From contig NC_014165.1 in assembly GCF_000092645.1 (NCBI RefSeq), positions 4,092,001-4,156,000 on the forward strand: a stretch of 64,000 nucleotides of DNA, in the 5' to 3' direction. This stretch comes from Thermobispora bispora DSM 43833 (GTDB lineage: Bacteria; Actinomycetota; Actinomycetes; Streptosporangiales; Streptosporangiaceae). The first letter of the stretch is position 1. The number at the start of each line of letters is the position of its first letter. Below the pieces are notes generated by a model. It was given only the letters and a program-made list of their open reading frames with translations, had not been told where the DNA came from and ran no database searches. Positions 14,212 through 17,173 of the stretch are shown here, piece by piece. A program made the position numbers and the translations under genes.

Positions 14212-15657
14212 ATGGGTACTGCGGGGCAGCTCGTCGTCAAGCGGTATCGCCTGGTGCGCGCCCACGGCCACGGTGCCATGGGCATCGTCTGGGAAGGCCA
14301 TGACACGCTCCTCGACCGGCCGGTCGCGGTGCGGGAGGTCCTCCTCCCGGTCACCCTCGCCGAGTCCAAACGGCTGCTGCTCACCCAGCGCCTCGCCAAG
14401 GAGGCCCGGCAGGCCGAGCGGCTGCGCCATCCGAACGCCGCCGCCGTCTACGACGTGGCCGAGGAGGACGGCACCCTCTACGTGGTGATGGAGCCCGTGC
14501 AGGCGCGCTCGCTCGAGGGGATCGTCAAGGACGACGGTCCGCTCTCCCCCGAGCGGGCCGCGCAGATCGGCCGGAGGCTCCTCTCCGTGCTCACCCACGC
14601 GCACTCCCTCGGGGTACGGCACGGCGACGTGCGGCCGGTCAACGTGCTCATCGGGCACGACGGCCGGGTCGTCCTCACCGACTTCGGCACCGCGCCGCTC
14701 GCCGCCGACCCGGCGTTCGCCCCCGGCAACCGGCGGATGCAGGCCTACCTCGCCCCGGAGCGCAAGGACACCGAACCCACGCCCGCGGCGGACCTGTGGT
14801 CGCTCGGCGCCACCCTCCACTACGCCGTCACCGGCACTCCCCCGGACCCGGCCGCGCGCTCCCACGACGAGGTGCCCGTTCCCCTCCGCCCGGTGGTGAA
14901 CGGGCTGCTCGCCCGCGACCCCAAGAAGCGCCTCGACCCGCAGGAGGCGGACCGGTTGCTCGCCGCGCTGGAGCCGGCCCAGCCCGCGCCCGCCCCGCCC
15001 CGGCGGGCGGGCCGTACCCGGAGGATCGCCGCCATCGCCGGGATCACCGCGGGGACCGTGGTGGTCGCCGCGGCCGCCGGCTGGGTGCTGGCGTGGCCGT
15101 GGTCCAGCGACGCCACGCCGACCGTGGTCGCGGAGAGCAGCCGGCCGGCCGTGAGCCCCTCCCCGGTCCCGTCGCCCACCGGGCCGTCCGCGCTCCGGCT
15201 CACCTGGTACCGGTCCCCCGCGGGCTGGCGTGCCGCCGTACCGAGGGGGTGGACCCGCCAGCAGGACGGCGAGTTCGCCATGGTGTGGATCGATCCGAAG
15301 GGGCGGGCCAACCTCCGGATCGAGGTCACCGCCCAGCGCGGCACCGACGCCCTCGCCGCGCTCCGCGAGGCCGAGGCGATCCTCGAGCCCACGGTGAAGG
15401 GCTACCGGTCGATCCGGCTCACCACGGCGGCGAGCAAGTACGGCGACGCCGCGGACTGGGAGTTCACCTGGACCCAGCGCACGTCCTCTCCGGACTCCCT
15501 GCTGAAGCGGGGCGTCGCCTACCACCAGCTCCGGCGGGTGATCTCGACGGCGAACACCACCGGGGTGCTCACCTGGACCACGAAGGCCGAGGAGTGGGAG
15601 CGGATGCGCCCCACGCTGACCAAGCTCCTCTCGCTCTTCCGCCCCGCGGCCGAGTGA
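14212..15657 (+). CDS. Membrane-bound Ser/Thr protein kinase-like protein with degenerate lysines
   Basis: A 481-residue protein with a PknB-type kinase domain at about 10-255, a Pro-rich linker, one membrane helix at about 272-296, and a 185-residue extracytoplasmic domain without PASTA repeats. Kinase landmarks are the glycine loop (AHGHGAMGIVWEG), a helix-C glutamate in LAKEARQAERLRHPN, the catalytic-loop aspartate in HGDVRPVN (Asp139) and DFG at 157-159. The invariant VAIK lysine is arginine (Arg41 in VAVREV). HRD is HGD, and the catalytic-loop lysine is Arg141. It may therefore be weakly active, use an atypical mechanism, or act as a pseudokinase. The ATG follows AGGCGGG. Confidence 0.85.
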   Translation: MGTAGQLVVKRYRLVRAHGHGAMGIVWEGHDTLLDRPVAVREVLLPVTLAESKRLLLTQRLAKEARQAERLRHPNAAAVYDVAEEDGTLYVVMEPVQARSLEGIVKDDGPLSPERAAQIGRRLLSVLTHAHSLGVRHGDVRPVNVLIGHDGRVVLTDFGTAPLAADPAFAPGNRRMQAYLAPERKDTEPTPAADLWSLGATLHYAVTGTPPDPAARSHDEVPVPLRPVVNGLLARDPKKRLDPQEADRLLAALEPAQPAPAPPRRAGRTRRIAAIAGITAGTVVVAAAAGWVLAWPWSSDATPTVVAESSRPAVSPSPVPSPTGPSALRLTWYRSPAGWRAAVPRGWTRQQDGEFAMVWIDPKGRANLRIEVTAQRGTDALAALREAEAILEPTVKGYRSIRLTTAASKYGDAADWEFTWTQRTSSPDSLLKRGVAYHQLRRVISTANTTGVLTWTTKAEEWERMRPTLTKLLSLFRPAAE

Positions 15658-16005
15658 TCGTCTCCGCCGGCCCGCCGGCCTGCCCGGCCGCGGGCTGATT
15701 CGGTCCGTCCGCCGGCCGGTCGGGCCGTCAGCCGGTTGGCTCTCCGATCGGGCTGGCCGCCGGCCCGGGCCGGGCCGATCAGGCCGGCCCCACACCGATC
15801 AGATTCGCGCCGCCCGATCGGCTCCGCGCCACGCAGCCGTGGTGATCAGGCTCTGGGCGTCCGGCCGCCCATCGGTTCGCCGCTCGCTCGCCCCACCTCC
15901 CTCTCAGACGCCCCTCGAAGGCCGGCTCCGGCCCGTGCCATCCACAGATCCCGCGTCTTGCCCGCGCGTGCCGCCGCGTTGTGCCATCATTGGACCAGCG
16001 CAAAA
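15658..16005. other. GC-rich intergenic region, no gene seen
   Basis: Nearly 350 bp of GC-rich sequence with many scattered CCGATC and GGCCGG words but no regular period. No ORF has a ribosome site. The end turns AT-rich where the operator-like repeat of the next gene begins. Confidence 0.4.
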
Positions 16006-16022
16006 ATGATAACGGTTTTCAT
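16006..16022. promoter_or_regulatory. Fur/Zur-family-like operator upstream of the CooC-like gene
   Basis: ATGATAACGGTTTTCAT is an 8-1-8 inverted repeat with a single mismatched pair (half-sites ATGATAAC and ATGAAAAC). It is an AT-rich island ending 18 bp before the start codon, where a bound repressor would block transcription. Its shape matches the TGANAAN-N-NTTNTCA pattern of Fur-family operators; actinobacterial Zur sites look most similar. Which metal regulator binds it is inference. Confidence 0.55.
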
Positions 16023-16040
16023 CATCACTCAGGGGGGCGC

Positions 16041-16985
16041 ATGCGGGTAGCGTTCGTCGGCAAGGGAGGGAGCGGCAAGACCACGCTGTCGTCGCTCTTC
16101 GCCCGCTACGCGGCCGCGCACGGCCCGGTGGTCGCGATCGACGCCGACATCAACCAGCACCTCGGCCTCGTGCTCGGGGCCCCGGAGACGCCGCCTCCGC
16201 TCGGCGGCATGCTCACCGAGATCAAGGAGTACCTCCGCGGCGACAACCCGCGGATCAAGGACGCCGCCTCGATGGTGAAGACGACCCCGCCGGGCCGTGG
16301 ATCCCGGCTGATCACCATCGACGACCCGTTCTTCCCCTCCTGCCGGGTCGACGGGGTCAGGCTCATGGTCACCGGCCCGTTCGCCGAGGACGACCTGGGC
16401 GTGGCCTGCTACCACTCGAAGGTCGGCGCCGTCGAGCTGTACCTCAACCACCTGATCGACGGGCCGGGCGAGTACGTGGTGGTGGACATGACCGCCGGCG
16501 CGGACTGCTTCGCCTCGGGGCTGTTCACCCGGTTCGACCTCATCTACCTGGTCGCCGAGCCCACCCTCCAGGGCGTCGGGGTCTACCGCCAGTTCCAGCA
16601 GTACGCCGCCGACTACGACGTGGCCATCTCAGTGGTCGGCAACAAGATCCAGTCGCCCGGGGACGTCGAGTTCCTCCGCGCGCACGTCGGCGACGACCTG
16701 CTCACCTGGTTCGAGCACTCGGCGGCCATCCGGGCCCTGGAGCAGGGCCGGCCTTTCACCCTCGATGACCTGGAGCCGGGCAACGTCCAGGCGCTCGGCG
16801 TGCTCCTCAGCACCCTCGACGCGCGGCCCAAGGACTGGGAGAAGTTCGGCAGGCAGGCGATCGAGTTCCACATCAAGAACGCCAAGGCCTGGGCGAACCG
16901 GGCGGTCGGCGCGGACCTCACCGCGCAGATCGACCCCGAGTTCGTGTTCGGTCCCACGCTGTCGGCCGCGGGCTCCGGCCGCTGA
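16041..16985 (+). CDS. CooC/MinD-like metal-chaperone-type ATPase
   Basis: A 314-residue P-loop ATPase of the SIMIBI class. The deviant Walker A motif is GKGGSGKTT (residues 7-15, signature Lys8). AIDADINQH (Asp34, Asp36) follows, and YVVVDMTAGADCF forms Walker B/switch II. The layout and VTGPFAEDDLGVACYH resemble CooC, which inserts nickel into CO dehydrogenase. CooC's metal-binding CxC pair appears here as Cys123-Tyr-His125. No CO dehydrogenase or hydrogenase gene is nearby, so its client is unknown. The ATG at 16041 follows AGGGGGG; an in-frame ATG 20 codons upstream would place the operator inside the gene and is rejected. The next gene, 223 bp downstream, may be its partner. Confidence 0.8.
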   Translation: MRVAFVGKGGSGKTTLSSLFARYAAAHGPVVAIDADINQHLGLVLGAPETPPPLGGMLTEIKEYLRGDNPRIKDAASMVKTTPPGRGSRLITIDDPFFPSCRVDGVRLMVTGPFAEDDLGVACYHSKVGAVELYLNHLIDGPGEYVVVDMTAGADCFASGLFTRFDLIYLVAEPTLQGVGVYRQFQQYAADYDVAISVVGNKIQSPGDVEFLRAHVGDDLLTWFEHSAAIRALEQGRPFTLDDLEPGNVQALGVLLSTLDARPKDWEKFGRQAIEFHIKNAKAWANRAVGADLTAQIDPEFVFGPTLSAAGSGR

Positions 16986-17031
16986 GGCCCGGCGCCCGGT
17001 AGGAGCGTCCGTCCGCCATCCCATGGCGCAC

Positions 17032-17173
17032 GGACACCCGCCGCCCACGGGGAGTGCGGACATCCCGCCCAGTGGGCGCGAAGACCCACCGCCCTCCGGA
17101 AACGCGGACATCCGCCCTGTGGACGCGAAGACCCATCGCCCTCCGGGAACGCGGACATCCGCCGTCCCGATGA
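17032..17173. repeat. 47-bp tandem repeat, three copies
   Basis: Three head-to-tail copies start near 17032, at 17080 and at 17127. The second and third are almost identical (GAAGACCCACCGCCCTCCGG versus GAAGACCCATCGCCCTCCGG); the first is more diverged. Each unit contains GCGGACATCC(C)GC, a near-palindrome. The array fills the gap between the ATPase gene and its small partner. Confidence 0.85.

Follow-up and report, generated by a model that had tools for sequence, protein, structure and literature searches.

The window, that is the whole stretch of 64,000 nucleotides of DNA from the thermophilic soil bacterium Thermobispora bispora that was analysed, contains a gene for a CooC-like SIMIBI ATPase which is preceded by a palindrome and followed on the same strand by a gene of the SCO5389 family (Table 1). 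The palindrome, ATGATAACGGTTTTCAT, is of the 8-1-8 type with a single mismatched pair (T-T), and the ATG of the ATPase gene lies 18 bp downstream of it. This start codon is supported by the matches in relatives, all of which begin at residue 1 (80/80, the best 80 of at least 570). GC content is 61% at positions 15950-16049 and 58% at 16000-16099, two 100-bp segments that both contain the box, versus 71-80% in seven segments covering 15600-15999 immediately upstream. The preliminary description had reported a one-mismatch palindrome 18 bp ahead of a start codon within an AT-rich island, and both observations are borne out. At up to three mismatches the palindrome pattern has no other occurrence on either strand of the window, where 0.01 would be expected.

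Table 1. Features of the ATPase locus, in positions of the window
Feature	Position	Strand	Description and basis
Tentative promoter element	15980..15992	+	TGTGCCATCATTG; picked by eye from upstream sequences, inferred
Predicted Zur operator (Zur box)	16006..16022	.	8-1-8 palindrome; motif scans and znuA matrix
15-bp core of the Zur box	16007-16021		TGATAACGGTTTTCA
CooC-like SIMIBI ATPase gene, 314 aa	16041..16985	+	P-loop GKGGSGKTT; sequence, alignment, AlphaFold model, Foldseek
C123-x-H125 of the ATPase	codons 16407-16409 and 16413-16415	+	H137 and H277 also conserved
SCO5389-family gene (PF20704 KH_NucS_shadow, NF040488), 128 aa	17209..17595	+	Profile matches over cut-offs

A consensus scan upstream of the ATPase gene found no sigma-70-type promoter, a canonical -35 element included. 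The tentative promoter element listed in Table 1 has a counterpart, TGTGGCATGATGG, in many relatives when the upstream sequences are compared by eye. CATCAT could serve as the -10 element of the ATPase promoter, which would place the box just downstream of the transcription start.

The T. bispora genome (a single contig of 4,189,976 bases; GC content is given as 72.4% for T. bispora R51T in PMC3035289) was scanned for Zur motifs, as had been suggested in the preliminary description, and the published actinobacterial Zur core TGANAANNNTTNTCA proved to match exactly at only three places, the palindrome and genome positions 1987686 and 417794. The core was derived from the znuA motif taaTGaNAANNNTTNtCANta, which is quoted in PMC5472717 together with the S. 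coelicolor Zur motif tGaNNatSatNNtCa. About 0.08 exact matches are expected from base composition, and six first-order Markov genomes yielded 0, 0, 1, 0, 0 and 0. Allowing one mismatch gave 5 places in the genome and 4 with the reversed control, and this core is therefore informative in its exact form only. The longer pattern TGAAAAYNRTTTTCA, at up to three mismatches, occurs at 48 places in the whole genome versus 12 for its reversed control; the place at 1987686 is a perfect match, and those at 417794 and at the ATPase gene come next with one mismatch each. The palindrome is confirmed as a real feature that goes beyond chance.

The site at 417794 lies upstream of a ZnuA-family gene (PF01297, 300.5 bits), which is followed by genes for an ABC ATPase and an ABC-3 permease. 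Among the NCBIfam substrate models none scored over its cut-off on the ZnuA-family gene, the best being AztC (zinc, 264/350) and the next MntC (manganese, 242/400), so that zinc is the presumed metal of this operon. The box at 1987686-1987700 (L131 5687-5701), with a perfect TGAAAACGATTTTCA, is the best Zur box of the genome and is flanked by an ABC exporter pair and a UPF0029 (YigZ-like) gene.

The T. bispora genome has genes for three proteins of the Fur family. Among solved structures, the Zur candidate (L018, minus strand) is nearest to 3mwm (E=1.5e-39), which we take to be S. coelicolor Zur, followed by 2o03 (FurB/Zur, E=3.6e-36), and no NCBIfam model naming Zur scored over its cut-off on this protein. 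The second is nearest to 3eyy, presumably Nur, while the third lacks a close structure match and is encoded next to a catalase gene. Compared with Zur motifs, the site mismatches 0/10 specified bases of the loose actinobacterial core, 2/11 of the S. coelicolor motif and 2/15 of the znuA motif, and compared with consensus sequences for other regulators it mismatches 3/14 bases of the Fur 7-1-7 box, 5/12 of the Nur box and 11/19 of the IdeR box. The IdeR, Nur and generic Fur motifs that were tried on the site fit it worse than, or about as well as, those of Zur. Sequence alone separates a Zur box from a generic Fur box weakly, and context therefore decides. Zur was chosen because the same motif is present at the ZnuA-family operon and because a matrix derived from znuA sites finds the box at 79 of 81 ATPase genes (see below). 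The earlier assignment of the palindrome to the 7-1-7 plan of Fur-family operators, and especially to actinobacterial Zur sites, is accordingly supported, with the preference for Zur over Fur coming mainly from context.

The palindrome is very likely a functional Zur site, and it is likely, by a somewhat smaller measure, that this predicted site represses the ATPase gene. It is very unlikely that the site is instead bound by one of the other two Fur-family proteins, whether Nur-like or catalase-linked, or by a regulator of iron, with the ATPase responding to nickel, iron or peroxide. Such a regulator might be drawn from the two further Fur-family proteins, one nearest to 3eyy and one beside the catalase gene; the 15-mer is almost as near to the generic Fur 7-1-7 box (3/14) as to the S. 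coelicolor Zur motif (2/11), and the left half of the box in some relatives contains TTGCAA, which we take to be a Nur-like half-site. The motif also stands, however, ahead of the ZnuA-family gene in T. bispora and of znuA in relatives, the right half is TTTTCA, like that of most znuA boxes, in 75 of 81 loci, and the Nur and IdeR consensus sequences are a poor fit.

Conservation of the box was assessed in 81 upstream sequences of 150 bp each, taken from the window gene and from the best 80 of at least 570 ATPase relatives. For the matrix, 26 of 30 znuA loci supplied 14 distinct sites, each the best match to a Zur consensus; of the four loci that were dropped two were truncated, one was distant and one was without a clear box. 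With this matrix 79 of the 81 upstream sequences, all except L063 and L093, outscored every one of 2,689 control windows taken at the same loci. Against 3,240 mononucleotide shuffles, 70 outscored them all and 11 fell below the highest shuffle. The site in T. bispora scored 29.0. The sequence [AG]TTTTCA is found within 140 bp of the start codon in 75 of the 81 loci. Forty distinct sites were aligned on this right half, whose conservation is thus fixed by the alignment; in the left half A5 is present in 39 sites, A6 in 40 and G2 in 31, with only G or A at position 3 and only C or T at position 7, and 35 of the 39 upstream columns from -39 to -1 carry no more than 0.5 bit in the same 40 sites. 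Conservation is laxer in the left half than in the right, as it also is in some znuA boxes. One form of the box, TGGGAACGGTTTTCA, occurs ahead of znuA in one genome (L164) and ahead of the ATPase gene in another genus (L081). A conserved Y-C-A follows the box at box positions 19-21, with C20 in 38 of the 40 distinct sites, and may be an extension of the operator or the mark of another element.

A spacing to the start codon of 17-34 bp in 74 of the 75 loci with the right half, together with the looser left half, would suit a promoter or untranslated-leader element that has no relation to metals. This explanation is extremely improbable, as the element fits the znuA matrix, dyad-matching positions on which the sites had not been aligned are kept in its left half, and a related form, TGACATYCATTTTCA, accompanies the boxed copies in probable Streptomyces described below.

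Within the order 273 of 345 genomes gave a match to the ATPase, and within the class 93 of 394 sampled genomes did, a few of them weakly. In a wider, author-chosen set of 134 ATPase copies, in which some loci appear twice (129 distinct upstream sequences) and counts over loci include shared ancestry, the matrix box is present in 106 and absent from 28. By group, the box accompanies 93 of 98 copies when the 80 loci are pooled with 18 from family f1, 6 of 8 in family f19, 5 of 26 in family f20, and one each in f39 and f48. Zur control would thus not be universal, since 28 of the 134 copies are without a box, 21 of them in the single family f20. The comparison of orthologues proposed in the preliminary description as a refuting check for the most part did not refute the operator: the repeat is kept in most upstream sequences (79/81 and 106/134) but is absent from 21 of the 26 f20 copies.

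The boxed set is mixed in shape, with [AG]TTTTCA in 89 of the 134 and a palindrome around AACGATAATCRTT in 9 of the 134, which are Nocardiopsis-like. Most upstream sequences of the latter type pass the znuA matrix. At L078, L089, L093, L094, L200, L201, L203, L205 and L206 this different palindrome replaces the TTTTCA-type box. In genome G111 the Nocardiopsis-type palindrome occurs at the ATPase site and at only one further site, with three mismatches, which is near a frame that was read by eye as an ABC solute-binding protein.

Family f20 is probably Streptomyces. It comprises 21 copies without a box and 5 copies with TGACATYCATTTTCA; in the tree the 5 boxed copies group in one clade and 10 of the unboxed ones in another. 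Four of the genomes (G361, G520, G535 and G550) have both boxed and unboxed ATPase copies. In the boxed second copies TTGACA and a TA-rich hexamer are seen by eye right before the box. Among the unboxed copies, L170, L171, L176, L179 and L181 share the palindrome CGTACTCATGAGTACG, which lies some 95-110 bp ahead of the ATPase gene and suggests control by a different regulator. The CxH motif is kept in 18 of 18 unboxed probable Streptomyces copies and is therefore not special to boxed ones. Extra cysteines are found in unboxed ATPase copies, and the unboxed rows in the tree form one clade. Two genomes each encode a near-identical pair of ATPase proteins (L222/L223 and L224/L225) in differing contexts, with an SCO5389-family neighbour at one member only.

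The SCO5389-family gene begins after a gap of 223 bp and is probably the second gene of an ATPase operon. It encodes a full-length member of the family (PF20704, 215.6 bits against a cut-off of 27; NF040488, 209 against 75) and is the only copy in T. bispora. A gene of this family is located behind 64 of 106 boxed ATPase copies and behind 0 of 28 unboxed ones, counts in which loci share ancestry and are not independent and in which contig ends may hide some neighbours. In the four genomes with both kinds of copy, the SCO5389-family neighbour is present only at the boxed copy (4/4). The protein has an invariant N93-C94-H95-R96 and a C-terminal C128 in 42 aligned rows, and its predicted structure has a pLDDT of 92. 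Between the ATPase gene and the SCO5389-family gene lie three 47-nt direct repeats (17017-17158); relative to the reference copy, the other two have 70% and 91% identity. SCO5389 itself is merely listed as a hypothetical protein in PMC7602649.

By sequence, CooC1 is the sole relative of the ATPase of solved structure for which the match extends beyond the P-loop (E=2.6e-8). CooC1 possesses a Cys-x-Cys motif that chelates metal at the dimer interface (PMC3792862), and in the alignment the C-Y-H of the ATPase falls on the C-Y-C of CooC. C123, H125, H137 and H277 are invariant in 70 of 70 aligned homologues; in a larger comparison that excludes L063 the first three are present in 120 of 120 copies and H277 in all save one truncated row. 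The AlphaFold monomer model of the ATPase has a mean pLDDT of 92.2, with a mean of 63 for the CxH loop (residues 121-130). A Foldseek search with this model ranked CooC1 first (E=1.0e-10), and VIA-align placed it 28th (Z 19.2 versus 20.3), tied with many NifH and MinD chains. Matches to the CO dehydrogenase model TIGR01702 over its cut-off were found in 0 of 60 genomes, and the sole match at E<=0.001 is a piece of 70 positions and 31.8 bits in T. bispora, which is below the cut-off.

The label 'CooC-like' in the preliminary description stands as far as sequence (E=2.6e-8) and the Foldseek search are concerned, but the Cys-x-Cys motif is lacking and a CO dehydrogenase partner was not found in the 60 genomes. 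If the ATPase were a true CooC that inserts nickel into CO dehydrogenase, the metal box ahead of its gene would be incidental. The sequence match to CooC1 and its first rank in Foldseek are what such a function would lead one to expect, whereas a search of 60 genomes yielded no CO dehydrogenase over the family cut-off and the metal motif is CxH rather than CxC, which makes this function highly unlikely.

The reading that we prefer, with a probability of roughly 0.8, is that Zur represses an operon whose SIMIBI ATPase handles zinc. Sequence analysis supports Zur control well, in that it establishes the box, its likeness to znuA boxes, its conservation, the linkage to the gene behind and the alignment of CxH; binding by Zur, repression, co-transcription of the two genes, binding of zinc and a chaperone function are inferred. 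When zinc is plentiful, zinc-loaded Zur dimers would bind the 7-1-7 box, placed as it is after the probable promoter and ahead of the start codon, and would keep the ATPase gene, and probably the SCO5389-family gene as well, from being transcribed. When zinc is scarce Zur would be released, and the operon would be expressed along with the ZnuA-family uptake operon. The ATPase is predicted to be a SIMIBI NTPase of the CooC/MinD/NifH type that probably functions as an ATP-driven homodimer. Since its Cys-x-His occupies the position of the Cys-x-Cys of CooC1, two subunits could offer a Cys2His2 zinc site. Within this framework the ATPase would most likely move zinc to, or guard zinc for, a priority client, and the SCO5389-family protein may be a partner or a client of the ATPase.

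A zinc-trafficking role for the ATPase is a tentative proposal, to which we give slightly less than even odds. A chaperone role is suggested by the combination of the Zur box, the CxH at the CooC metal position and the analogy with Zur-controlled COG0523 proteins. More tentative still is the possibility that the operon encodes a new class of Zur-controlled zinc-trafficking machine for zinc starvation, in which a CooC-like homodimer would clamp zinc in a Cys-x-His/Cys-x-His interface and, with the SCO5389-family protein as partner, load a priority client. The ATPase would then do here what COG0523 GTPases are proposed to do elsewhere, and some probable Streptomyces would hold an unboxed copy together with a copy for zinc starvation.

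Alternatively, Zur control could be real and the ATPase and SCO5389-family protein, instead of carrying zinc, could have ribosomes, RNA or DNA as their targets in zinc-starved cells, for instance in the remodelling of ribosomes. Zur regulons include paralogues of ribosomal proteins (PMC6103462), the Pfam name of the SCO5389 family is KH_NucS_shadow, and G361 contains a further SCO5389-family copy beside nucS (NF002876, 411.9 bits against a cut-off of 252). The targets of SIMIBI relatives such as MinD and ParA are not metals. The SCO5389-family model, however, has no match in the PDB at E<=0.001, to a KH domain or otherwise, and the CxH at the place of the CooC metal ligands suggests a metal. 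We consider an action on ribosomes or nucleic acids unlikely, though well short of implausible.

The ATPase is likely to be a regulon member that is new to the literature. The preliminary description had held that CooC-like ATPases were not described members of Zur or Fur regulons, and this agrees with the open-access literature searched, a scope that stops short of the ChIP supplement of PMC5472717, in which no link of Zur to a CooC-like ATPase or to SCO5389 was found. The same holds for linkage of the SCO5389 family to a boxed ATPase in the literature searched. The ATPase gene was not recognised in the Zur regulon table as given in the available part of PMC6103462, which for S. coelicolor lists SCO0472, SCO0474 and SCO3431 as 'various' genes. 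If the preferred reading is true, a conserved ATPase that is still uncharacterised belongs, together with its partner, to the Zur regulon in many actinomycetes. The ATPase would be a candidate zinc chaperone outside the COG0523 family, and the operon would provide a lead to the function of a family of CooC-like proteins for which the search of 60 genomes revealed no CO dehydrogenase partner. Since some probable Streptomyces have an unboxed copy as well as a boxed one, the two kinds can be compared directly in laboratory strains that are easy to handle.

The locus resembles several known systems in part. Like actinobacterial Zur boxes, the site is a 7-1-7 palindrome with an exact core, TGaNAANNNTTNtCa, and has the same form as the site at the ZnuA-family operon, although it departs from two published motifs at 2/11 and 2/15 specified bases. 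The ATPase shares with CooC1 of Carboxydothermus (3kje) the fold, a P-loop of the GKGGxGKTT type and the position of the metal motif. It differs from CooC1 in having Cys-x-His, a Zur box and no CO dehydrogenase found in the 60 genomes, as well as a C-terminus of about 50 residues beyond the part matched by VIA-align (residues 1-264 of the model). The COG0523 GTPases (YciC/CobW-type) are often controlled by Zur and have been suggested to be metallochaperones (PMC2770081, PMC6103462). A CobW/COG0523 domain is not among the 21 Pfam families matched by 70 ATPase homologues (E<=0.01). The ATPase is similar to the COG0523 GTPases in being a P-loop NTPase with a Zur box and a possible role in metal trafficking, but it belongs to another branch, that of the CooC/MinD/NifH type.
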